A stretch of DNA of 64,000 nucleotides from Lacrimispora amygdalina (GTDB lineage Bacteria; Bacillota; Clostridia; Lachnospirales; Lachnospiraceae). Each line of letters starts with the position of its first letter. The first letter of the stretch is position 1. The position numbers and the translations under genes are program-made. The stretch lies in assembly GCF_003432035.1 (NCBI RefSeq), contig NZ_QOHO01000011.1, forward strand, positions 62,001 through 126,000, read 5' to 3'. Below the pieces are notes generated by a model that searched no databases, was not told where the DNA came from, and saw only the letters and a program-made list of their open reading frames with translations. Shown here piece by piece: positions 16,461 to 60,639 of the stretch.

Positions 16461-16808
16461 TTATTTAACCAGTTCTTTGACCTTAGCAGCCTTACCAACT
16501 CTGTCTCTTAAGTAATTCAGTTTTGCTCTTCTTACTTTACCCTTTCTTACAACTTCAACGTTGTCTACGGAAGGGGAATGTAATGGCCAGGTTTTCTCAA
16601 CGCCGATACCGTTAGAATTCTTTCTTACAGTAAAGGTTTCTCTTGCGCCGCCGTTCTGTCTCTTGATAACGGTTCCTTCAAAAATCTGGATTCTTTCGCG
16701 GGTTCCCTCTTTGATCTTGTTGTATACTTTTACAGTATCACCAACATGGAAAACCGGTACGGTCTGCTTTAACTGTGCTGCTTCAATATTCTTAATAATT
16801 TCGTTCAT
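16461..16808 (-). CDS. rplS: 50S ribosomal protein L19
   Basis: 115-residue ribosomal protein at the 30S-50S interface. '[27 protein letters not shown]' and '[36 protein letters not shown]' are the universal L19 blocks. The open frame continues 23 codons upstream, but AAGGAGGTTCACACG stands before the ATG at 16808 and the length then matches the family. It has its own promoter and a candidate leader, separate from the upstream trmD. Confidence 0.98.
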
Positions 16809-49763: not shown

Positions 49764-50741
49764 ATGGAACAAAGATTATTAGGAAGATCCGGTATTAAAG
49801 TCAGCCCCATGGGAATTGGCAGCTGGGCGATCGGCGGTCAGTTCTATATGGACGAGAAAATTGACGGCTACGGCCAGACAGACGATGAGACTTCCATCAA
49901 AGCCATTGAAACTGCTTTGGATCTTGGAATCAATTTGATCGACACATCAGATGCATATGGGATTGGACACAGCGAAACTGTGATCGGAAAGGCGATTGAA
50001 GGAAAAAGAAATCAGGTTATTCTTGCAACAAAATTTGGCTACATGGGAAATGAAGCTACACGGACGCTGAAAGGTTACAATTTAGATCCGGGATATATTG
50101 AAAGAGCCTGCGAGGCCTCCATGCGCCGATTAAAAACAGATACCATTGATTTGTATCAGCTTCATGTCTGGGAAATAGGATTATCAGAGATGGAAACAGT
50201 TGTGGACACGCTGGAACGAATGACGGAAAAAGGGAAAATCAGAACCTATGGCTGGAGTACCGATCTGGTAAAGGGAGCAAAGCTTTTTTCAGAAAACAGG
50301 AACTGCAGCGCCATTCAGCATCAGTTAAATATCCTTCAGGATGCCCCCGAAATGATTCAGCTCTGCGAAGAAAGAAATCTGGCAAGCATTAACCGCAGTC
50401 CTCTTGCCATGGGATTTTTAAGCGGTAAATTCAACCAGGATTCCTTTCTTTCCCCTGATGATGTAAGAGGCGCAGGCCATTCCTGGACAGAATCAGTCTT
50501 TAAAAACGGAAGACCTGCACCGGAAGTTTTAGAGAAACTTCATGCAGTACGGGATATTCTTACCAGCAACGGAAGAACTCTGGTACAGGGCTCTCTCGCC
50601 TGGATCTGGGCAAAAAGCAGCGTGACAATTCCAATTCCAGGCTTTAAAACCCCACAGCAGATAAGGGAAAATGCCGGGGCCATGGACCACGGAATGCTTA
50701 CCCCGAAGCAAATGGAAGAAATTGATCAGCTGTTAAAGTAA
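49764..50741 (+). CDS. Aldo/keto reductase
   Basis: NAD(P)H-dependent oxidoreductase of 325 residues with the full AKR tetrad: Asp in 'NLIDTSDAYGIGHSE', Tyr in the same block, Lys in 'ILATKFGYMG' and His in 'LYQLHVWEIG'. The C-terminal 'IPIPGFKTPQQIRENAGA' is the usual cofactor-binding strand. Substrate is unknown. GGGAGGTAATTTATA precedes the ATG. It lies downstream of the TetR gene and may be its target; it ends tail to tail with the next operon, only 4 bp away, with no evident terminator. Confidence 0.92.
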   Translation: MEQRLLGRSGIKVSPMGIGSWAIGGQFYMDEKIDGYGQTDDETSIKAIETALDLGINLIDTSDAYGIGHSETVIGKAIEGKRNQVILATKFGYMGNEATRTLKGYNLDPGYIERACEASMRRLKTDTIDLYQLHVWEIGLSEMETVVDTLERMTEKGKIRTYGWSTDLVKGAKLFSENRNCSAIQHQLNILQDAPEMIQLCEERNLASINRSPLAMGFLSGKFNQDSFLSPDDVRGAGHSWTESVFKNGRPAPEVLEKLHAVRDILTSNGRTLVQGSLAWIWAKSSVTIPIPGFKTPQQIRENAGAMDHGMLTPKQMEEIDQLLK

Positions 50742-50745
50742 TCTC

Positions 50746-51864
50746 TTACTGAACAATATCCTCTGCCTGTGCATCGGTAAGCTGCACATGATAAAAAAGA
50801 TCATAAAATGTTTTAACATCAGCCTTTACATCTTCATGATACTGCTCCGGATAAACCAGGTTGCCAAGCCAGAGAATGCCAATCATGCGGTTTACGGAAG
50901 GAGGATTGCTCATGAAGCTGTAGGGAGCTGATGGTATCTGATAAACATGTCCTTCTTTCACAGCATTTAATTCAGCCCAGACAGAATCCGTTGTGATAAT
51001 CTGATAAAGAGTTTCAGAATCTGCCAGAATAATATCCGGCTGCCAGAGTAGCAGCTGTTCCATGGACACCTCACTTCCGCCTCCGCTTGACGCCTGATCA
51101 ACCTTTGCAGCATTCTCCGCTCCGATCTGTTCTATTACACGGGCATGTATGGATCCTTCTGCATTGGTATGAAGTCCATTGTCTCCGATTGCGAAATATA
51201 CGGATTTCTTTTGATCCGCCCCCAGAGAAGCCTTGGCAGCCTCGGATTTTTTCAAAGTGCTGTCACAGTAATCCGCCAGCTTCGCAGCCTGTTCTGTTTC
51301 ACCCGTAATTTCTCCCAGCATTTTATATGCAGAGCTCATTGAATCTAAGTCAGCTTCTACAAACACCACCGGTATCCCAAGCTGTTTGGACAATGCGTCC
51401 ATATCTTCCTTAACAGTCTTTTTAGCCTCGCCGATGTCAATGATAACATCTGGTTTTGCAGCAATCAGTGCTTCCATATTCAAATTCGCGTTCTTACCAT
51501 AAAACTGGCCGAATTTGGGCAGTCCCCAGTATTTTTCATCTATATACTTCTTAGCGCCGTCTGAAAAATCTGATGCAAGTCCTGCCAGCTTGTCAGGAGC
51601 CACAGTGTAAAGGACGATCTGGGCCAGCGGACCGGACGGAGCAATTTTTTGTATATCTTCCGGTAGTGTTACCTCCCGTCCTGCGGAGTCGGTAAATACC
51701 CGTGTTTTTTCCCCGGTGCTCTCCGATGGTGGTACCGTGGCAGTTTCAGTCTGTTCAGGTGTTGTCTCTTTGGTTTCTTTGATGTCTGCCTTTTGACAGC
51801 CGTAAATCAGAATAGCGGTGCAAAGTACGGCTGCCAGAACCAATCCCCTTCTATGTTTTCTCAT
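50746..51864 (-). CDS. Metal/oxyanion ABC transporter substrate-binding lipoprotein (FecB/TroA-like fold)
   Basis: A 372-residue extracellular lipoprotein. Signal peptide ends in IYGC with lipidated Cys23; a Thr/Glu/Pro-rich linker follows, then 'TRVFTDSAGREVTLPEDIQKIAPSGPL', the opening of FecB/BtuF-type (peripla_BP_2) proteins, and 'LIAAKPDVIIDIGEA' and 'QLLLWQPDIILADSETL'. It pairs with the FecCD-type permease and ATPase of the same operon. Fold-type members bind siderophore iron, cobalamin or (as in MolA) molybdate/tungstate; operon context favours the last. Start ATG at 51864 overlaps the DUF364 gene stop by 4 bp. Confidence 0.88.
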   Translation of the reverse strand: MRKHRRGLVLAAVLCTAILIYGCQKADIKETKETTPEQTETATVPPSESTGEKTRVFTDSAGREVTLPEDIQKIAPSGPLAQIVLYTVAPDKLAGLASDFSDGAKKYIDEKYWGLPKFGQFYGKNANLNMEALIAAKPDVIIDIGEAKKTVKEDMDALSKQLGIPVVFVEADLDSMSSAYKMLGEITGETEQAAKLADYCDSTLKKSEAAKASLGADQKKSVYFAIGDNGLHTNAEGSIHARVIEQIGAENAAKVDQASSGGGSEVSMEQLLLWQPDIILADSETLYQIITTDSVWAELNAVKEGHVYQIPSAPYSFMSNPPSVNRMIGILWLGNLVYPEQYHEDVKADVKTFYDLFYHVQLTDAQAEDIVQ

Positions 51865-52637
51865 AAATCCTCCATTCTGCCTTTCAGGCAATGTTTATTT
51901 TCAGTGACACGAACCGGAGTACCGGCACGGATCACCGCTTTTTTCTCTTCATTCTTTACCAGCTCTTCCAGCTGTATTCTGTCCCGTATCAAAGTTCCCG
52001 CAAGCTCGCTGACACCAAATTCAAAGAGCTTCGGAGCCAGCGGAATGCTTGGTCCTACTAAAATAATCTTCGAATTGTGCGCTAAGTTAAGAAGTCTTGG
52101 CAATGTTTTGTTTACCAGTGTAAAGCCGGTAATAAACACGTAATCCATTTCCTCCAGCAGAAATTCACAGGCGCTGTCGGGATAATCATTTTCTCCTGGA
52201 TCCCGCTCCAGAACAACACATGTACCCGCTTCTTTTAAAAACTCCTCTGCATAGCAGAAATGCCCGACTGTTGCAACCTTTTTTCCCTTGTAATCTGTTC
52301 TATGGGCAAAAAATGTATCCTCACCGGACAGCATATCAATCTGGCCGGCTCTATCAAGACAGTTCAAGGACTCATACTGATTGTAATAAGCATTTATGGC
52401 TGCTGCCCCAATACTCGCTTCAGTGAAATTCCAGGATTTTATCAGACCAGCCGCTTCTTTCCAGGACATCTCCCTCACATCTTTTCCCTTACTCTTTATC
52501 GTACATAAAGGATTTGTGGCAGCTGACCCCAGACAGCCTCCTGCAGTTAAAAGTGTGCAGTAAGTTCCGGTGAAATAATCACTTACTTTCACATCATCCG
52601 GAATCGGTTCGATCAGACAGTCGTACAATTCCCACAT
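51861..52637 (-). CDS. DUF4213/DUF364 protein (putative heavy-metal chelation domain)
   Basis: 258 residues. N-terminal DUF4213 part contains 'LTAGGCLGSAATNPLC' and 'ASIGAAAINAYYNQYESL'; C-terminal DUF364 Rossmann-like part contains 'VATVGHFCYAEEFLKEAGTCVVLERDPGENDYPDSACEFLLEEMDYVFITGFTLVNKTL'. Similar proteins occur beside FecCD-type metal importers in anaerobes; the family is suggested to chelate metal or bind an intracellular metallo-ligand, unproved. The frame is open further upstream, but AGGAGATACATAT lies before the ATG at 52637, which overlaps the ATPase gene by 25 bp. Confidence 0.82.
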   Translation of the reverse strand: MWELYDCLIEPIPDDVKVSDYFTGTYCTLLTAGGCLGSAATNPLCTIKSKGKDVREMSWKEAAGLIKSWNFTEASIGAAAINAYYNQYESLNCLDRAGQIDMLSGEDTFFAHRTDYKGKKVATVGHFCYAEEFLKEAGTCVVLERDPGENDYPDSACEFLLEEMDYVFITGFTLVNKTLPRLLNLAHNSKIILVGPSIPLAPKLFEFGVSELAGTLIRDRIQLEELVKNEEKKAVIRAGTPVRVTENKHCLKGRMEDL

Positions 52638-53416
52638 ATATGTATCTCCTCTCCTGGCATGCATATCTTTCTTCCGCTGCTCCCCTCCTCATAAATATCA
52701 ATCGGGACCTGATAAAGCTTCTGAAGAAGTTCTTTCGTCAATACTTCCGATGGCTCTCCCAAAGCTGCAACCGCCCCCTCCATCATCACCATGGCCTGAT
52801 GGGCAAAATAAAATGCATGCTCCGGATTATGAGTGGACATTACTACCAGATAACCCTTTTGAGATAAATTCTTTAACTCACTCATAACTCTGATCTGATT
52901 TCCGTAATCCAGGCTGGCACAGGGCTCATCTAACAGAAAAATCCTGGCCTCCTGGGCGATTGCCCTTGCTATGAGGACAAGCTGCTGTTCACCGCCGCTT
53001 AACTGGCTGTAAATCCGGTCCTTTAATGCTTCAATTCCCATTATCTCCAGCGCCTTTACAGCTTTTTCTCTCTCCTTTTTACCAGGAGATCCAAACAAAG
53101 GCAGAGACGCTGCGGTACCCATCATAACCATATCAATGACTGGAAACGCAAATACAGAATCATGATTCTGGGGAATATATGCAATCTTTTTTGCAAGCTC
53201 CTTTTCCGAATAATCCTCCTGTTTTATTTCATCAATGAGGATTGTTCCGTGAAAGCCCCTTAAAAAGCCAAGTATACAGCGAAACAAGGTACTCTTTCCT
53301 GCCCCGTTTTTCCCAAGAATACAGATTAGCTGCCCTCCTTCAAATGCAAAGGAGGTTCTCTTTAAAACCGGATGCCTCTGATAGGAAAATTCCAGATTCT
53401 TAATCATCAGTTCCAT
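52613..53416 (-). CDS. ABC transporter ATP-binding protein (FecE/MolC type)
   Basis: A 267-residue cytoplasmic ATPase: Walker A 'GKNGAGKSTLFRCILG' (about 35-50), Q-loop 'YIPQNHDSVFAFPVIDMVMMG' (the FecE/BtuD form), signature 'LSGGEQQLVLIARAI', Walker B 'IFLLDEPCASLDYG' and 'MSTHNPEH'. The last 20 residues, beyond the ABC fold, include 'ICGNC', a C-x-x-C of unknown meaning created by the 25-bp overlap with the next gene. GGAGACATT precedes the ATG. Works with the permease 12 bp upstream. Confidence 0.92.
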   Translation of the reverse strand: MELMIKNLEFSYQRHPVLKRTSFAFEGGQLICILGKNGAGKSTLFRCILGFLRGFHGTILIDEIKQEDYSEKELAKKIAYIPQNHDSVFAFPVIDMVMMGTAASLPLFGSPGKKEREKAVKALEIMGIEALKDRIYSQLSGGEQQLVLIARAIAQEARIFLLDEPCASLDYGNQIRVMSELKNLSQKGYLVVMSTHNPEHAFYFAHQAMVMMEGAVAALGEPSEVLTKELLQKLYQVPIDIYEEGSSGRKICMPGEEIHICGNCTTV

Positions 53417-53428
53417 AATGTCTCCTTT

Positions 53429-54445
53429 TTAAAGCCTTTTTCCTTCCTTTAAGATCAGATACAGGAAAAATGGTGCTCCCACAAAAGCAGTTAAAATACC
53501 AATGGGAATCTCACTGGTTGCAATGAGTCTTGCAAAGTTGTCTACAATCAGAAGGAAACTTCCTCCAAGGAGGAGAGATGCCGGCAAAAGTCTCCTGTAA
53601 TCGCTGCCAACCAGCATACGGGCCAAATGGGGTACAACCAGCCCCACCCAGCCGATCAAACCACTTACAGATACCGATGCGGATGTAATCAGGGTAGCTC
53701 CCAGCACAACTGCAAACCTTAACCTTCCAGTATGTATCCCCATGCTTCTTGCCTCTTCATCACCCAGGCTTAATACATTGATTCTCCATCTGAGAAGAAA
53801 AATAGGGAGGATTCCCAGAATAATCCATGGAGCTGCAAATAAAACATCCTTTTGTCGAATGGAGGCCAGGCTTCCCATAAGCCAGTAGGTGATGACCGGC
53901 AGCGTATTGGCAGGATCCGCTACAAGTTTAATGAAGGAAACAGCCGCATTGGCAAGGGAACTGACCATAATGCCGGAAAGTACCAGGCCCAGTACCTGAT
54001 TATAGGGAACACGGCTGCTTACAAGACAGACAATTCCAACAGCAGTAAGACCAAAAACAAATGCGCACAAAGAAACACCGCCATATCCCAGAGAAAGGAA
54101 TAATCCCAGCGCCGCCCCAAATCCGGCGCCTGATGATGCTCCCAGCACATCAGGCGAAACCATGGGGTTTTTAAAAATCCCCTGGTAAGCTGCACCTGCA
54201 AAGGAAAGTCCCCCGCCGACCAGCGCCGCCATCAACACTCTTGGAAGTCTGACTTTAAAAACAACAGTTTCAACCTGAGAAGGCCAGGAGGCCTCAATGG
54301 GAAACCCGCGTGACAGCAGAACTTTCACCAGCGTTACGGGATAAACAGGATAACGTCCCAGAAGAAAAGAACCAAAAAAACAAACCACAAAAATAGCACC
54401 TATAAGAATAAGCCGATTGTTATAACATTTCTCCCTGTCTCCCAC
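53429..54445 (-). CDS. FecCD-type ABC transporter permease (MolB/BtuC-like)
   Basis: A 338-residue membrane protein with about ten helices. Family motifs: 'VRLPRVLMAALVGGGLSFAGAAYQGIFKNPMVSPDVLGASSGAGFGAALG' (about 65-115), 'LVLSGIMVSSLANA' and 'GLIGWVGLVVPHLARMLVGSDYRRLLP' (the ATPase-coupling and gate region). FecCD permeases carry siderophores, haem or cobalamin, and in H. influenzae MolBC, molybdate/tungstate. The operon argues for a Mo/W role. Translation probably starts at a GTG (54445) with AAGGG upstream. Confidence 0.92.
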   Translation of the reverse strand: MGDREKCYNNRLILIGAIFVVCFFGSFLLGRYPVYPVTLVKVLLSRGFPIEASWPSQVETVVFKVRLPRVLMAALVGGGLSFAGAAYQGIFKNPMVSPDVLGASSGAGFGAALGLFLSLGYGGVSLCAFVFGLTAVGIVCLVSSRVPYNQVLGLVLSGIMVSSLANAAVSFIKLVADPANTLPVITYWLMGSLASIRQKDVLFAAPWIILGILPIFLLRWRINVLSLGDEEARSMGIHTGRLRFAVVLGATLITSASVSVSGLIGWVGLVVPHLARMLVGSDYRRLLPASLLLGGSFLLIVDNFARLIATSEIPIGILTAFVGAPFFLYLILKEGKRL

Positions 54446-54449
54446 TTTT

Positions 54450-55043
54450 TTAAATCCCTTCTCTTATATATTTTAAAATCTTCTTTCTGACTGCCTCCTC
54501 ATCCTTACGTGAAAAGGTCAACAGCTGATTGTTCTGATTGTTTAATACAGCTTCTTCCAGCTCATCACGAAGATGTGAGGCAGAAGGATTGCCTCCATTG
54601 CGGCTCATCATCAATGCATAATTTTTCCGGCTCTTGATTACTCCAATGCAGGGGACTGGACCTTTCATGCAATCATGAACCACTTCCATAAACTCAGGAA
54701 TTAAAAGTTCCACTCCGCCAATCTCATCCATCAGAATGAACTTATCATCTCCCTGAACGGAAAGCAGTCTCCTGCCTTCCTTCTGAAACACCTCCGGAAA
54801 TGATACCATTCCTTCTTTCGTACGTCTTAAGAATATATTGGTAAGCCCTTCCCGGTAACAGGCTATAGGCGACCACTCCTCTTTAACAGAAGCCAGCCGG
54901 AAACCAGCCGTATCCCCTTTTTCATCAATTAACCGCTGGGAATAGAATCCGCCTGTAGCAGCCCGGAATGGTTTCAGACACTCAAAAAGAAGTGTGGTCT
55001 TTCCCTCTCCTGAGTCTCCCGTTAAAAAAAGACTTTTCCCCAT
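54450..55043 (-). CDS. THEP1-family nucleoside-triphosphatase
   Basis: A 197-residue P-loop protein: 'LFLTGDSGEGKTTLLFECL' (Walker A, about 4-22) and 'FILMDEIGGVELLIPEFM' (Walker B, about 98-115), the layout of NTPase_1/THEP1. Family members hydrolyse NTPs and GTPases; in Mo-linked operons similar proteins accompany MobA/MobB-type cofactor enzymes, though their exact role is unknown. The ATG (55043) shares a base with the xdhC stop, so translation is coupled. Confidence 0.87.
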   Translation of the reverse strand: MGKSLFLTGDSGEGKTTLLFECLKPFRAATGGFYSQRLIDEKGDTAGFRLASVKEEWSPIACYREGLTNIFLRRTKEGMVSFPEVFQKEGRRLLSVQGDDKFILMDEIGGVELLIPEFMEVVHDCMKGPVPCIGVIKSRKNYALMMSRNGGNPSASHLRDELEEAVLNNQNNQLLTFSRKDEEAVRKKILKYIREGI

Positions 55044-56077
55044 TACCTGCGTCTTCCTTCCCGGCCTGCCCTGATGCTGATTAATTCCCCCGCCACGCTG
55101 ATGGCTATTTCAGCCGGTGTTTCCGCATATATTTCCAGGCCGATGGGGCTGTGGCAGCTGTCAATTATATCACCTGCAATACCGTCAGCCATAAGCTTTT
55201 CTTTGATAGACGCCAGTTTTTTTCTGCTTCCTATTACACCCACATAACAGGCATTTCTTGTTAGAATCTGTCTCTGCACAACATAATCCGACTGATGCCC
55301 CCTGGTCATTATGCACACATAGTCACATTCCCTGATCTCCAGGTAATCAAAAATGCGTTCAAAGTCTCCGGTAATAGTTTGCTCAGCTGCAGGGAACAGA
55401 GTCTGGCTGGAAAATTCAGCACGGTCGTCAAAAACCACGCACCGGAAGCCAATATGAGTGAGAACCGGAACAATCTCCTGGGCAACATGTCCTCCGCCAA
55501 AGATATAAACACGGCCGGCACTGACAAGAGGTTCACTGTAATATTTATGTATTCCAAAAGAAAGCTGAACCGATTTATTCTGAAGCAGCTCTGCCTTTAA
55601 AGCTTCGTCCGGTTCCTCAATTCCCCAAAAACCTGAGGATTCATTATAAAGTCCCATCCCCCACGCCGTTTCGTCAGTGATATCCATGATAAGCCAGCTG
55701 TTTTCATCTCTTTCAAATGCTTTTTCTATCTCCCTGCAAAGATTCTGAAATTCCAGATTTTTATGGTCCAGGTATTGAAAATAAACCACAACATCTCCGC
55801 CGCAGATCATCCCCAAATCTGCAACCTGTTCCTTTCCCAGTACGAAACCATGAGTGTAGGAAAGCTTGTCTTCCATTGCTTTCAGTGCTCTTTCCACAGA
55901 CTTAAACTCGACTGCGCCGCCTCCAATGGTCCCTGCTGTCGTCCCGTCTTTGCGGACCAGCATATGGGATCCGGATCCTCTTGGTGTGGAGCCTGAACTT
56001 GCAATAATCGTAACCAGAACAGCATCCTCGCCCCGTAAAAGTGTGGATAATACTTCATGAAACAGCTGTCTCATCAT
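55043..56077 (-). CDS. xdhC: XdhC/CoxI-family protein (molybdenum cofactor insertion/maturation)
   Basis: A 344-residue protein with the N-terminal XdhC domain ('ASSGSTPRGSGSHMLVRKDGTTAGTIGGGAVE') and a C-terminal Rossmann domain ('VYIFGGGHVAQEIVPVLTHIGFRCVVFDDRAEFS'... 'VGVIGSRKKLASIKEKL'). XdhC proteins bind molybdenum cofactor, protect it and pass it, after sulphuration, to xanthine dehydrogenase-family enzymes. No molybdoenzyme is in this window. Start may be ATG 56077 or 56074; the first overlaps the stop codon of the upstream fusion gene (ATGA). Confidence 0.92.
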   Translation of the reverse strand: MMRQLFHEVLSTLLRGEDAVLVTIIASSGSTPRGSGSHMLVRKDGTTAGTIGGGAVEFKSVERALKAMEDKLSYTHGFVLGKEQVADLGMICGGDVVVYFQYLDHKNLEFQNLCREIEKAFERDENSWLIMDITDETAWGMGLYNESSGFWGIEEPDEALKAELLQNKSVQLSFGIHKYYSEPLVSAGRVYIFGGGHVAQEIVPVLTHIGFRCVVFDDRAEFSSQTLFPAAEQTITGDFERIFDYLEIRECDYVCIMTRGHQSDYVVQRQILTRNACYVGVIGSRKKLASIKEKLMADGIAGDIIDSCHSPIGLEIYAETPAEIAISVAGELISIRAGREGRRR

Positions 56078-57000
56078 AAACCCTCCTCAAAGTATTTTTT
56101 TAACAGTTCTTCTGCCTTTCCTTTTAATTCCTTCTCAAACGCCATGTACTTTTCCAATAAATCCGCTGCCTTTGGCGTAAGCTGTGAAAACCCCCCTTCT
56201 AAACCGCCCGACTGTGTGATCAGCAAAGGATACCCCAGCTGGTTTTCTGCATTCTTTAAAAGCTTAAATCCCTTGCTGTAAGACATATTCATCTGACGGC
56301 AGGCTGTCTGCATGGACCCTGCGTGCTCAATCAGCATTAGAAACTGTGCCATCTCAGGACCGAAAAACACTTCATCAAATTCCAGAGACAGACTGACAGA
56401 CGGGCGCATGACATGGTGCCCCAGAGCCGGATATATGGCAGTATCCTGATTTGATTCAACCGCTTCAATGATTCCTTTATCATCTACCGGGATCTCTTCG
56501 ATCAGCGCATCCACCCCTTCCTGCCTTAAGGCCCCTCCTAATCCCCTTTCCCCCCTGTATGAGAGCAGGGATGGTATCAGATCTTTATGGATCATAACCG
56601 GATGGCCCCTTCTTCCCTCATATACCGGACAGGATGCCTTCCCGCTGCATTCCATTATTTTTTTGATTGTTTCCGGTAGAAGCAATGGGAATTTGGGGGG
56701 CAGAATTAAAATTCTGTCGCACAGATCCTCTATGTAGCGAAGCCCCATTCCAATGCTGTCAAACATCTGGGAGTTCTCATACTCCTCATTTCTCAAGCAG
56801 ATAACCCTTAATTTGGATATATGCTTTTCTACCTCCTTCGCATCCCTGCCGGTAATCACCACAACGGGATCAACCCCGCACTGTTTCAGTGTGGTTATAA
56901 CCCTTCTGATAACTGTAGTATGACCAATTGGCAGTAACGGACTAAATGCATTGGCCAAACTATTATGACCTGCAGCACTTATGACAGCACCTGTCTTCAA
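56074..57000 (-). CDS. MobA/MocA-like NTP-transferase domain fused to a ModE-type winged helix
   Basis: A 308-residue fusion. Residues 1-190 resemble molybdopterin nucleotidyltransferases ('AVISAAGHNSLAN', 'RRGHPVMIHKDLI'), but the nucleotide-binding loop has no R-x-G-x-x-K and the GDQP aspartate site reads 'LPPKFP', so catalysis is doubtful. Residues about 205-300 are a ModE/LysR-type winged helix: 'AQFLMLIEHAGSMQTACRQMNMSYSKGFKLLKNAENQLGYPLLITQSGGLEGGFSQLTPKA'. There are no TOBE/molbindin domains. Start: a TTG at 57000 with GGAGG 7 nt upstream; the frame upstream has no ribosome binding site. First gene of the operon, and probably its regulator through a ModE-like box in its own leader. Confidence 0.87.
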   Translation of the reverse strand: MKTGAVISAAGHNSLANAFSPLLPIGHTTVIRRVITTLKQCGVDPVVVITGRDAKEVEKHISKLRVICLRNEEYENSQMFDSIGMGLRYIEDLCDRILILPPKFPLLLPETIKKIMECSGKASCPVYEGRRGHPVMIHKDLIPSLLSYRGERGLGGALRQEGVDALIEEIPVDDKGIIEAVESNQDTAIYPALGHHVMRPSVSLSLEFDEVFFGPEMAQFLMLIEHAGSMQTACRQMNMSYSKGFKLLKNAENQLGYPLLITQSGGLEGGFSQLTPKAADLLEKYMAFEKELKGKAEELLKKYFEEGL

Positions 57001-57015
57001 ATGAATCCCTCCAAT

Positions 57016-57039
57016 CGTTATGTTTTTAAAAATATAACG
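57016..57039. promoter_or_regulatory. ModE-box-like inverted repeat
   Basis: Read on the minus strand, the arms are CGTTATAT and ACATAACG around an 8-bp A/T centre. They match, from memory, the E. coli modA operator. The site lies just downstream of the -10 and overlaps the predicted transcription start (about 57042) and early leader, an ideal place for a repressor. Confidence 0.78.
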
Positions 57040-57048
57040 CTTAACCTG

Positions 57049-57077
57049 ATTATAATTGATTGGAAAATATTTGTAAA
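57049..57077 (-). promoter_or_regulatory. Sigma-A promoter of the Mo/W operon
   Basis: Minus strand TTTACA (57072-57077), 17-bp spacer, consensus TATAAT (57049-57054). Confidence 0.85.
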
Positions 57078-57091
57078 CCCATAATAAACGC

Positions 57092-57127
57092 AAAAACTCC
57101 CGGAACGGTCAAAATCCGTTCCGGGAG
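57092..57127 (-). terminator. Terminator of the SH3/NlpC gene
   Basis: Arms 57097-57108 and 57116-57127 form a perfect 12-bp stem with a 7-nt loop, followed on the minus strand by TTTTTG. It insulates the Mo/W operon promoter. Confidence 0.93.
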
Positions 57128-57131
57128 CATA

Positions 57132-58733
57132 TTAATCTCCGACCATATTCCTAATCTTTACAGGAGTCCGGTAGTTCCAAGTGGAAATCTTAATTCCGCT
57201 TCTCCGGCTCGCTGCATGAACAATCTGCCCGTTACCGATGTACATGGCAACATGATTGATCTTTCCGCCGCTGCTGGCATAAAAGAGCAGATCACCAGGC
57301 TTCATCTCTCCAGATTTAACCGCTTTTCCCATTCCAGCCTGGGAGCCGGAATAATGAGGCAGGCCTACTCCAAACTTTCCATAGATTGCCATGGTAAATC
57401 CGGAGCAGTCCGCTCCTTTTGTCAGGCTGGTTCCTCCCCATACATAGGGGTTGCCTAAAAACTGGAGCGCGTAATTTACGATCTGTGTCCTTAACGAGGA
57501 CTGGGCATTGGCTTTTTCTTCAAGAGGCGAGAACTTAATGGCTTCCGGCAGCGCATAACGTACATCAATGTAATCCGTAGAAACAAATGCACTGCTGTTT
57601 TCTTCCAGCTCAATCTCAACCCAGCCATCAATCTGCTTTAAAACAGGATATTTCTCATTATTGGATATCTGCGTCCATATCTTGGCATCTGTGGAGGGTT
57701 CTGTTCTGGCATTCAGCATATCGGTATTCACCACAGCCATCAGCTCAGCCACCTGCATGGCCTCGTCTTTCGCCGCCTGACCAGTGAGAATAAAGTCTGA
57801 CTTTACATAGCCGGTCACTTTTCCAGACTGGATCTTATACCAGCCGTCATCAGTCGTCTCCAGAATATTACCGGCTGCTTTACTTGGCATCTTGGCAATA
57901 ATCTTTCCGTTCTCACTCGGCTCTTCTCTGACATTTAAATAATTATCTACATCGGAAATACCAATATTCTTGTAATAATTAAAGACCATGGCCTTTAAAT
58001 CCAGCTTCCTGGCTTCATTCATGGAATATTCAAGTTTAACATAGTCCGCAGACAAATATCCGGTGGGAATCTGCACCCAGCCGTCCGTCTGATCCACCAC
58101 TTCATACCGTTCATCCGTCAATGCCTGACCAACCACATCAGAGTCTTTAGACGGCTCTTTTCTGATATTTAAATTGTCGGTCTGGACGATTGCCCTGAGC
58201 TTTACCAGATCCTGCGCCTTCTTCTTGGCGTCATCTCCGGTAATAACAAACTCCGAAGTAATATAACCTTCAATTCCGCCGGAGGAAATACGGTACCAGC
58301 CCTGTTTCGTATCCTCTAATATGTCACAGGCACTGTCTCCCTGCAGCTTTCCGATTACATCTGCATCTGTTCCGGGTTCCTTTCGGACATTTAAATATCC
58401 GCTTACCTGTACTATACCAAGGTTTTTATAGGAATTAATCACCTCTTCCCTGGCCTTTGCTTCCTGTGCTTTCAGCTCTGCTTCATTCTCACCCTTTTTA
58501 TCTGCATCATCAGCTGCCTTTGTATCCGCTGCAAGAGCTTCCGAACCTGTAGCTGCTGCCGGTCTGGCATTCTTTTGCCTGCTGGCAGTAATTCCCGCTG
58601 CAGCAACAACAGATACCAGAAGAATTGCAGAACCTGTGAGTATCAGAATCTTTTTATAATCATTCTTATTACGGTTTTTTTTGGCTTTATCCAAACGGAT
58701 TATGTAATCTTTTTTCTCGTTGTTGTTTTCCAT
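57132..58733 (-). CDS. Membrane-anchored SH3 / NlpC-P60 peptidoglycan endopeptidase
   Basis: A 533-residue cell-wall hydrolase. A Lys/Asn-rich cytoplasmic start and one transmembrane helix (about 28-48) precede an Ala/Lys/Glu-rich linker, four bacterial SH3 domains (about 100-400) and a C-terminal NlpC/P60 domain. The catalytic triad is in place: Cys in 'GADCSGFTM', His in 'INHVAMYIGNG' and a third polar residue in 'QIVHAAS'. The SH3 domains alternate between two types (A-B-A-B). It should cut the D-Glu-diamino acid bond of stem peptides. Start ATG 58733 has GGAGAG about 10 nt upstream; an ATG eight codons earlier is possible. Confidence 0.93.
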   Translation of the reverse strand: MENNNEKKDYIIRLDKAKKNRNKNDYKKILILTGSAILLVSVVAAAGITASRQKNARPAAATGSEALAADTKAADDADKKGENEAELKAQEAKAREEVINSYKNLGIVQVSGYLNVRKEPGTDADVIGKLQGDSACDILEDTKQGWYRISSGGIEGYITSEFVITGDDAKKKAQDLVKLRAIVQTDNLNIRKEPSKDSDVVGQALTDERYEVVDQTDGWVQIPTGYLSADYVKLEYSMNEARKLDLKAMVFNYYKNIGISDVDNYLNVREEPSENGKIIAKMPSKAAGNILETTDDGWYKIQSGKVTGYVKSDFILTGQAAKDEAMQVAELMAVVNTDMLNARTEPSTDAKIWTQISNNEKYPVLKQIDGWVEIELEENSSAFVSTDYIDVRYALPEAIKFSPLEEKANAQSSLRTQIVNYALQFLGNPYVWGGTSLTKGADCSGFTMAIYGKFGVGLPHYSGSQAGMGKAVKSGEMKPGDLLFYASSGGKINHVAMYIGNGQIVHAASRRSGIKISTWNYRTPVKIRNMVGD

Positions 58734-58801
58734 TCTGTATTTTCTCTCCATCCTCATATATTCATCGGCTGACCGATTCAGATTATGAGCCTATCTGCTA
58801 C

Positions 58802-58810
58802 AGTATATCA
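58802..58810 (-). promoter_or_regulatory. Extended -10 promoter of the SH3/NlpC gene
   Basis: Minus strand TGATATACT (TG-n-TATACT), with a weak -35 (TCGCAA) 17 bp further upstream. It lies about 70 bp before the chosen start. Confidence 0.5.
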
Positions 58811-58875
58811 CAATTTATTACATATTGCGACAATTGTATTTCAAAAAATTATTAAGATTATGTTACAAACTAATT

Positions 58876-58917
58876 AAAAACAGGACCAAAGGCATCTGCT
58901 AACGCCCCCGTCCTGTT
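58876..58917 (-). terminator. Terminator of the TrpXYZ-type ABC operon
   Basis: Outer arms 58879-58886 and 58910-58917 (AACAGGAC/GTCCTGTT) with a short inner GGCG/TGCC pairing, followed on the minus strand by TTTAATT. Confidence 0.72.
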
Positions 58918-58924
58918 CATCAAT

Positions 58925-59722
58925 TTATTTTGCCAGAATCATGCGGTCATTGGAGAATTCCTCTCCGCTGGCTTCTTCAAATTTTTTCAGCAGATCTTCC
59001 ACTTCCAGTTTTTTCTTTGCCTCCCCTGAAACATCATATATGATACGGCCTTCATGCATCATAATCAGACGGTTGCCGATCTGAATGGCATCTTTCATAT
59101 TATGGGTAATCATAAGTGTGGTCAGATTCTGCTCAGCCACAATCTCCTGCGTAATATCAAGAACTTTTCTTGCTGTCTTGGGGTCCAGTGCAGCCGTATG
59201 CTCATCTAAAAGCAGAAGCTTTGGTTTCTGAAGCGTCGCCATCAAAAGAGTAAGTGCCTGCCTCTGGCCTCCGGAAAGAAGTCCCACCTTATTGGTCATA
59301 CGGTCCTGCAGACCCAGTCCCAGTTTCTGAATGGCATCATAATAAAATGCTTTTTCTTCGGATTTAATTCCCCATGACAAGCCTCTTGCTTTTCCTCTTC
59401 TGTATGCAAGCGCCATATTCTCCTGTATCTCCATACCGGCGGCTGTTCCCATCATAGGATCCTGAAAAACCCTGCCGATATACTGGGCTCTTTTGTATTC
59501 CGGATATCTGGAAATATTGATTCCGTCTATTTCAATCTTTCCAGAATCAATGGGGTATACGCCGGCAACCATATTTAACATCGTTGATTTCCCGGCTCCG
59601 TTTCCGCCGATGACTGTAACAAAGTCTCCCTCATTCAGATGAAGGTTAATGCCATTCAGCGCTTTTTTCTCATTAATTGTATTCTTATTAAAGGTTTTTC
59701 TTACATTCTTAATATCAAGCAT
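58925..59722 (-). CDS. ABC transporter ATP-binding protein (TrpZ/YnjF-like, aromatic amino acid or related solute)
   Basis: 265-residue ATPase with Walker A 'GGNGAGKSTMLNMVAG' (about 39-54), 'GRVFQDPMMGTAAGM' Q-loop, signature 'LSGGQRQALTLLMAT' and Walker B 'LLLLDEHTAALDPKTA', where the family has His after the catalytic Glu. This Q-loop and 'DEHTAALDP' are typical of the importers partnered with PF04392 binding proteins, which in streptococci carry tryptophan. GGAGGAG lies 7 nt before the ATG at 59722; the permease stops just upstream. Last gene of the operon. Confidence 0.9.
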   Translation of the reverse strand: MLDIKNVRKTFNKNTINEKKALNGINLHLNEGDFVTVIGGNGAGKSTMLNMVAGVYPIDSGKIEIDGINISRYPEYKRAQYIGRVFQDPMMGTAAGMEIQENMALAYRRGKARGLSWGIKSEEKAFYYDAIQKLGLGLQDRMTNKVGLLSGGQRQALTLLMATLQKPKLLLLDEHTAALDPKTARKVLDITQEIVAEQNLTTLMITHNMKDAIQIGNRLIMMHEGRIIYDVSGEAKKKLEVEDLLKKFEEASGEEFSNDRMILAK

Positions 59723-59724
59723 GA

Positions 59725-60639
59725 TCATTCTCCTCCTTCTGTGTAAGATTTCTTCAGACGAAGCTTTCTCACCACAACAGGCACGCAGAGCGCCACTGCA
59801 ACAATCACTGCTGACAACAGTTTCATATCATTGGCATTCATACCCATTCTTAATACAACTGCACGGATCACGAAATAAATCACGGAACCCACAACTGCAG
59901 AAGTCAGTTTACTTCCAAAAGAACGAAGCCTGCCCATCAGCACCTCTCCGATTACAATGGCTGCAAGGCCGATGACAATCGCTCCGGTTCCCATACCGAT
60001 ATCCGCATATTTCTGGCTCTGGCAGACAAGACCGCCTGATATTCCCACCAGTCCGTTGCTGATAACCAGTGCCAGAAGCTTCGTCCAGTTGGTATTAACT
60101 CCCTGGGCGCGTATCATTGATTCATTATTGCCGGTGGCACGCATGGCGCTGCCGATTTCTGTTCCGAAAAACCAGTAAAGAAGCGCAATCATGATCACTG
60201 CAATTCCGATACCAATCACAAGAGACGCAACGGGTTTATTCAGACCGGTAAGATCAATGAATTTTGACATAATTGTATCGGTCTTTAAAAGGGGAACGTT
60301 GCTCTTGCCTCCCATGATCCTCAGATTAACGGACCATAATCCGATCTGGGTCAATATTCCCGCCAGTATGGCCGGAATTTCAAAGATTGTATGTAACAAT
60401 CCTGTCACTGCTCCGGCAGCCATTCCTGCAATTGCCGCCACTGCCAGGGCAACCCACGGATCCACATGAAAATTAAGTATCATAACGGCGCAGACACAGC
60501 CGCCCAAAGCAAAGCTTCCGTCTACGGTCAAATCCGCAATATCCAACAACTTATAGGTAATATAGACACCTAATACCATAATCCCCCATAAAACGCCCTG
60601 AACCACCGCGTCCTGAAGGGATACCAGTAAACCGCTCAT
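59725..60639 (-). CDS. ABC transporter permease (TrpY-like, BPD_transp_2)
   Basis: 304-residue permease with about eight helices. 'VLWGIMVLGVYITYKLLDIADLTVDGSFALGG' near the N-terminus is the hallmark of this subgroup of BPD_transp_2 permeases. 'RATGNNESMIRAQGVNTNWTKLLALVISNGLVGISGG' is the coupling region. GGAGG precedes the ATG at 60639. A 149-bp spacer with unusual RNA structure separates it from the binding-protein gene. Ligand specificity (Trp, Tyr or another small solute) is inferred from family only. Confidence 0.9.
   Translation of the reverse strand: MSGLLVSLQDAVVQGVLWGIMVLGVYITYKLLDIADLTVDGSFALGGCVCAVMILNFHVDPWVALAVAAIAGMAAGAVTGLLHTIFEIPAILAGILTQIGLWSVNLRIMGGKSNVPLLKTDTIMSKFIDLTGLNKPVASLVIGIGIAVIMIALLYWFFGTEIGSAMRATGNNESMIRAQGVNTNWTKLLALVISNGLVGISGGLVCQSQKYADIGMGTGAIVIGLAAIVIGEVLMGRLRSFGSKLTSAVVGSVIYFVIRAVVLRMGMNANDMKLLSAVIVAVALCVPVVVRKLRLKKSYTEGGE

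Follow-up and report, generated by a model that had tools for sequence, protein, structure and literature searches.

In Escherichia coli, ModE is composed of an N-terminal winged helix-turn-helix (wHTH) and two TOBE domains, as described in the available part of PMC11980592. Solo ModE-type wHTH proteins without a molybdate sensor have been documented for Desulfovibrio; the accessible sections of that report (PMC545781) term their Mo sensing "not clear" and give CGGTCACG-N14-CGTGACCG as the predicted site. The stretch of Lacrimispora amygdalina DNA analyzed here as a whole (64,000 nucleotides; hereafter termed the window) encodes, as the first of the seven genes of an operon, a protein in which a MobA/MocA-like nucleotidyltransferase domain is joined to a ModE-type wHTH (see Table 1). 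The likeness to E. coli ModE comprises identical operator arms and arm spacing, a homologous wHTH (1b9m, 1o7l) and targets in molybdate import and molybdenum cofactor (Moco) formation; in contrast to E. coli ModE, the wHTH forms the C-terminal part of the fusion protein, TOBE domains are absent (no match at an E-value of 0.001) and the MobA/MocA-like domain stands in their role. With the Desulfovibrio proteins, as far as the available part of PMC545781 describes them, the fusion shares a ModE DNA-binding domain that lacks a molybdate sensor, whereas their predicted site differs from the E. coli-type box of the fusion loci. The solo ModE-type genes of Lachnospiraceae and E. faecalis EF2572 (accessible part of PMC2432076) possess the wHTH of the fusion but no fused domain. 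Compared with MocA/YgfJ, MobA and the DVU_1551 family (NF045665), the fusion lacks the loop Arg/Lys pair and the GDxP Asp and is joined to a wHTH. Among the matches listed in the open-access literature, titles and abstract openings named neither a MobA/MocA-ModE fusion nor, for Lachnospiraceae, a ModE box of the E. coli type.

Table 1. Features of the fusion-gene operon and its control region (positions in the window).
Feature	Position	Strand	Remarks
Strong terminator-like hairpin	57096..57128	minus	separates upstream gene from operon promoter
-35 hexamer TTTACA	57072..57077	minus	promoter scan
-10 hexamer TATAAT	57049..57054	minus	promoter scan
Predicted ModE-type operator CGTTATATTTTTAAAAACATAACG	57016..57039	minus	about the inferred transcription start
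Shine-Dalgarno-like GGAGG	57008..57012	minus	
MobA/MocA-like + ModE-type wHTH fusion gene	56074..57000	minus	308 aa, TTG start
NTP_transf_3 domain (P0001 residues 6-161)	56521..56988	minus	degenerate in the active-site loop and at the GDxP Asp
ModE-type winged helix (P0001 residues 214-298)	56110..56364	minus	profile matches
XdhC-family molybdoenzyme maturation factor	55043..56077	minus	domain search
NTPase_1 family P-loop protein	54450..55043	minus	Pfam domain search
FecCD-type ABC permease	53429..54445	minus	Pfam domain search
ABC transporter ATPase	52613..53416	minus	Pfam domain search
DUF4213-DUF364 protein	51861..52664	minus	Pfam domain search
Peripla_BP_2 substrate-binding protein	50746..51891	minus	Pfam domain search

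The first-pass annotation of the locus had assigned a ModE-type wHTH to the first gene of the operon, and profile comparison supported this assignment: the domain matched TIGR00637 with 48.6 bits (E-value of 6.5e-13) and the profiles of 2ijl, 1b9m and 1o7l. Judged by these matches it is homologous to ModE, although it stays under the curated TIGR00637 threshold of 98.5 bits. In the genome-wide search with the same model the fusion reached 51.1 bits and the next best protein 18.4 bits; it is the sole clear ModE-type protein of the genome. The other 13 matches (18.4 bits or less), mostly in frames of 290-400 aa, were rejected as candidates for a second ModE; by their length, they look like LysR-type proteins. 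The NTP_transf_3 assignment of the first domain (77.4 bits versus a cut-off of 27) was also borne out at the level of fold by a structure comparison restricted to fusion residues 1-196; since GlmU and IspD scored within 1 Z unit, the fold alone cannot single out MocA. The DVU_1551 family model NF045665 matched the N-terminal half only (139.2 bits; more than 315 bits over the 359-residue model are needed), and the fusion stayed under the TIGR03310 cut-off as well as under that of NF045665. Among the Pfam and NCBIfam models there was none that spans the whole fusion protein. Of 398 genomes sampled across the phylum, at least seven besides that of the window covered at least 240 of 309 residues, with five family codes represented.

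The residues of the nucleotidyltransferase active site deviate in the window's fusion: it contains AAGHNSLANAFSPL and PPKFP where intact relatives show AAGMSSRMGDFKPM and PVDIP. The window's group has lost the Arg and Lys pair of the loop, and a Lys replaces the GDxP Asp (in the fusion alignment to 3d5n, GDMP stands at the place of GDxP); the loop Arg/Lys and the metal-binding Asp are taken here as catalytic residues of MocA/MobA. Within the resulting Asp-to-Lys group (n = 41, defined by the Lys itself), Leu occupies position 93 in all 41 sequences, compared with Lys in 29 of 33 intact fusions. A separate MocA-like gene is present in the genome of the window (contig C20; motifs AAGDSLRF..NK and CDQP; under the TIGR03310 cut-off as read), on a contig that also contains a MoCoBD_1 gene. 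The active-site loss together with this separate gene suggests that the first domain of the fusion is probably dispensable as an enzyme; we infer that it may instead sense a cofactor intermediate.

With respect to the control region, the earlier description of a promoter TTTACA-17-TATAAT followed by a 24-bp inverted repeat at about the inferred transcription start was verified by coordinates on the minus strand: the hexamers are spaced by 17 nt, the repeat begins 9 nt past the -10 hexamer, and the TTG start codon of the fusion gene lies at 56998-57000. With 11 of 12 consensus matches, the operon promoter was the top of 12 promoter-like sites between 50500 and 57300; as shuffled versions of this region yielded 9.6 such sites on average, only the score of the operon promoter stands out. 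The identity of the arms with the E. coli modA operator, which the first-pass annotation had put forward, proved correct for both 8-bp arms: the DNA upstream of modA in E. coli MG1655 contains CGTTATATTGTCGCCTACATAACG, and the window repeat has both arms of this K-12 operator at the same spacing, whereas the 8-bp centers differ. An inverted repeat of the CGTTATAT-N8-ACATAACG type is present at the window site with 0 mismatches; if up to three mismatches were allowed, there were 2 matches in the 64-kb window, i.e. the two strands of one site (shuffle mean of 0.40; 2 matches reached in 9 of 100 shuffles). The arm pattern occurred without mismatch at a single place in the 5,943,630-bp genome and with 2 mismatches at three further places; CGTTAT-N12-ATAACG had one occurrence. 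Its identity, position and conservation (see below) support the 24-bp repeat as a predicted ModE-type operator.

For the analysis of further loci a half-site score (maximum of 17.6) was devised, the weights and thresholds of which were fixed after the first sites were known. Applied to 79 fusion loci taken from named genome records, the score revealed 36 matches at a score of at least 15.4 (200 permuted half-sites: mean 0.9, largest 14) and 45 matches at a score of at least 14.6 (mean 4.8, largest 25). A threshold of 14.0 was rejected: it gave 59 matches (mean 18.7), and with permutations that reach 74 it says little. Matches near -2.9 kb (CGATAT...GTATAACG; L043, L044, L046, L051, L058 and L069) are repeated among related loci and have the look of coding sequence; they were excluded from the nucleotide counts on arm conservation and from the pairing counts given below. 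Conservation of the repeat at orthologous promoters had been set beforehand as a test, and the repeat proved to be conserved: a box of at least 14.6 was present within 8 kb upstream in 39 of 90 fusion loci of known status (the 79 loci, 19 further loci and the window, minus L074 and L109), of which two are doubtful for the fusion, as the L099 box is that of a solo ModE gene, and L077 gave a weak match. The Asp-to-Lys group including the window had a box in 30 of 40 loci, the other 10, with at least 1.5 kb of upstream sequence, showing no box at the fusion locus; in a 27-row clade that kept both loop residues in 25 and the Asp in all 27 rows, the box was found in 0 of 24. Related loci are, however, non-independent data points, and tree-based tests on independent pairs showed no significant link of the box to active-site or recognition-helix traits (median p of 1, 7 pairs); the link to the clade (30/40 versus 0/24) therefore rests on few events.

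The boxes head operons, even when the fusion gene is located far downstream or elsewhere. The box precedes the start of the fusion gene by 38-58 nt in six Lacrimispora-like loci (L039-L042, L079, L089; proteins 82-87% identical), in three Hungatella loci (L045, L047, L057), in Clostridium gasigenes (L075), in two Bacillota MAGs and in L082; in the Lacrimispora-like loci, by label three Lacrimispora, two Paenibacillaceae (L040, L041) and one Hungatella sp. (L089), and in the three Hungatella loci the box is placed as in the window. The C. gasigenes locus has the exact arms, the box at the same place and an identical seven-gene order, with a fusion protein 43% identical to that of the window; the exact arms were found again in L060 and L073. 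In the six nearest relatives, one arm reads CGTAAT or CGTATT instead of CGTTAT (position 4 or 5 changed). The outer bases of the arms are the best conserved, though imperfectly so, and positions 7-8 drift. In loci of the Enterocloster type, the fusion gene is situated late in a longer Moco/modABC operon and the box lies 5-7.5 kb upstream, behind a promoter. The Pfam domains of the L060 operon are a MoCF domain, MoaC, a MoaA-type radical SAM, MOSC-MoCF, SBP_bac_11, a permease and an ABC ATPase; gene names of the Enterocloster type outside L060 are ORF readings, and L070 and L073 are without one or another gene. Of the 42 rows (50 in total) with a promoter score of at least 9, 27 had a gap of 8-10 nt between -10 hexamer and box.

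Within the genome of the window, the moaC-moaA-ABC operon showed no box, the best score in 20 kb being 14.0 at 16493, off the promoter; the regulon may therefore consist of one operon in this genome. This moaC-led operon (L127:2752-8758, contig C31) contains MoaC as assigned by Pfam, and moaA, MOSC, ABC transporter and MoCF genes as assigned by ORF reading; the Rfam search at its promoter gave a chance-level match only. Two boxless loci of the Asp-to-Lys group were set beside the genome-wide search, with a clear Moco operon found only in one: in Acetivibrio ethanolgignens (L088, taken as G302) the fusion gene sits among other genes without a box, and the only perfect palindrome of the genome heads a MoCF/radical-SAM operon with TATAAT 8 nt ahead. 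In the other (L067, taken as G111), the only palindrome, identical to the 24-mer of the window, precedes Sulf_transp and TusA genes without an obvious promoter; these genes (region L175:1372-2887) adjoin a hydantoinase-like gene (ORF reading), a setting that hints at selenium-linked molybdenum hydroxylases. One genome, G271, had one palindrome before a MoCF/mod/fusion operon and another before a Peripla_BP_2/FecCD operon like that of the window.

At family scale, the perfect palindrome was found at 60 places in 52 of 397 genomes and its reversed control at 88 places in 71 of 397. Raw frequency was discarded as an argument, since the control is the commoner of the two; only location and genome association speak. 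Among genomes that encode a ModE-type wHTH, be it fused or solo, 28 of 86 had the palindrome, versus 24 of 311 among the others (Fisher test, 3e-8, uncorrected for kinship); for the reversed control, the counts were 18 of 86 versus 53 of 311 (p of 0.43, likewise uncorrected). Ten of the 60 palindromes lay within 500 bp of a ModE-type gene (1 fusion, 9 solo), compared with about 0.06 expected if palindromes were spread evenly over 3-Mb genomes; nine solo ModE-type genes had a CGTTAT-N12-ATAACG palindrome less than 200 bp away. Of the genomes with a full-length fusion, 13 of 36 hold a perfect palindrome, degenerate boxes not counted. Among 12 perfect palindromes in 23 genomes (reversed pattern: 5 places), 9 were situated at genes linked to Mo, Se or importers, the remaining 3 at genes without visible Mo link (G361, G059 C4, G380; all by ORF reading); by this reading, and with these three exceptions, the box goes with operons for molybdate transport or Moco. 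Three kinds of ModE-helix proteins thus accompany the site: ModE of E. coli, the fusion, and helices that occur solo.

Taken as a whole, the pattern makes it likely that the fusion protein acts as autorepressor of its seven-gene operon, with a MocA-like pseudoenzyme as sensor that may read cofactor status. Operator identity, position and conservation, domain content and active-site loss have their support in the sequence; binding, repression, dimer and ligand are inferred. The C-terminal ModE-like winged helix, presumably dimeric, would bind the repeat over the transcription start and thereby repress the fusion regulator itself, the XdhC-type factor, the NTPase, the FecCD importer with its ATPase, the DUF364 protein and the binding protein. 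In place of the TOBE domains by which classical ModE senses molybdate, the fusion has the MobA/MocA-like domain, which in the window's clade is devoid of the presumed catalytic residues and most likely serves as sensor. Its probable input is the status of the cofactor pathway (molybdopterin, Mo-molybdopterin or a cytidine/guanosine nucleotide; the ligand is a guess), and it would signal sufficiency. BirA and NadR are cofactor-pathway enzymes that double as repressors, each reading and repressing its own pathway; their folds are unrelated to that of the fusion, and in contrast to them the enzyme part of the fusion looks inactive in the window's clade. Apparently, an E. coli-type site at Mo uptake and cofactor operons of gut-type Clostridia is read by a sensor-swapped fusion; the first-pass proposal of a conserved DNA site with a replaced sensor gains support from the missing TOBE match and from the arms in common with E. 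coli.

The invariant GHP and D-x-G positions of a 12-sequence alignment suggest a pocket under selection, and the aligned fusions all have the nucleotidyltransferase domain (a few are cut by contig ends). Both observations argue against a fusion that binds the box but uses this domain as a dimerization scaffold, molybdate or tungstate being sensed indirectly via a Mop/TOBE storage protein or the importer. In favor of such indirect sensing, which we regard as unlikely, are a small TOBE ORF in the same genome (C94, 94-aa frame, 67.5 bits) and the solo ModE-type wHTH proteins without sensor domain near the same palindrome, which indicate that sensing in trans may exist. The direction of control bears on another possibility, namely that the fusion activates, or both activates and represses, instead of simply repressing the operon: a site just downstream of the -10 hexamer is the usual position for a repressor, and the box is so placed in the window and in most relatives with a scored promoter. 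In L084 (6054-6077) and L108 (2081-2104), however, a CGTTAT-type box abuts the upstream side of the -35 region of a modA-type gene, which, unlike the downstream placement elsewhere, is a possible activator arrangement; for the operon in the window, activation is nevertheless decidedly unlikely.

That the fusion is an ordinary bifunctional enzyme, its HTH no longer DNA-binding and the box read by another regulator, would fit the distant fusions that keep AAGxSSRMGxFKPM and PVDIP, with the box in 0 of 24 loci of the 27-row clade. The window's clade, in contrast, is without the active-site residues, yet kept the wHTH with its GGxxGG stretch and the box, and its genome lacks a second clear ModE-type protein, so that this reading is very improbable. 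An extremely slim chance is left to a function of the repeat as RNA hairpin beside the Shine-Dalgarno site. The repeat can fold (-3.9 kcal/mol, z of -1.64 in 36 nt), but the z-score was 0.03 with 61 nt and -0.58 in C. gasigenes, and the site in L084 and L108 is located upstream of the promoter. Across 40 distinct sites, the six outer pairs were broken in 22 cells and compensated changes were none, a pairing count that is weak because the sites were selected by half-site letters. The Rfam scan of 50000-60000 gave no match at gathering scores. As the longer stretch did not exceed its shuffles in hairpin stability and the selection-biased count showed no compensated pair changes, the RNA reading was rejected.

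The autorepressor reading would provide a clear candidate for an operator that was kept across phyla, arms to the letter, while the sensor half of its regulator was exchanged, and it points out candidate molybdenum regulons for gut Clostridia. Should a dead MocA-like domain be the sensor, a pseudoenzyme cofactor sensor would join the known enzyme-regulators. Mo sensing by ModE DNA-binding domains without a molybdate-binding domain, as in the Desulfovibrio case outlined in the accessible part of PMC545781, becomes testable. On a wider scale, we tentatively consider, with more doubt than confidence, that in these Clostridia control of Mo genes moved from the oxyanion (TOBE) to the cofactor pathway: a fusion of MocA-like domain and ModE helix might have been an active enzyme-regulator at first and a pseudoenzyme sensor in Lachnospiraceae later, with the E. 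coli-type site retained, and, on Rosetta-stone grounds, separate MocA-like partners might inform the solo ModE helices of other Firmicutes.

Three loci with solo ModE-type genes deserve description. In L099 (1488-1925), molybdenum hydroxylase-like genes (ORF reading) adjoin a solo ModE-type wHTH gene that scores 69.5 bits and is closely preceded by a CGTTAT box, and the fusion on the opposite strand has intact catalytic motifs. In L176 (1501-1524), the palindrome CGTTATCCTTGCACAAGGATAACG precedes a TusA-domain gene and a YqeB-like gene of selenium metabolism (by reading; no Pfam match) at a distance of 2.7 kb from a solo ModE-type gene. In G668 (C9:259062-259993), a MocA-like frame (205 aa) adjoins a solo ModE-type wHTH frame (125 aa) on the same strand; by its arrangement, this pair is a split form of the fusion.
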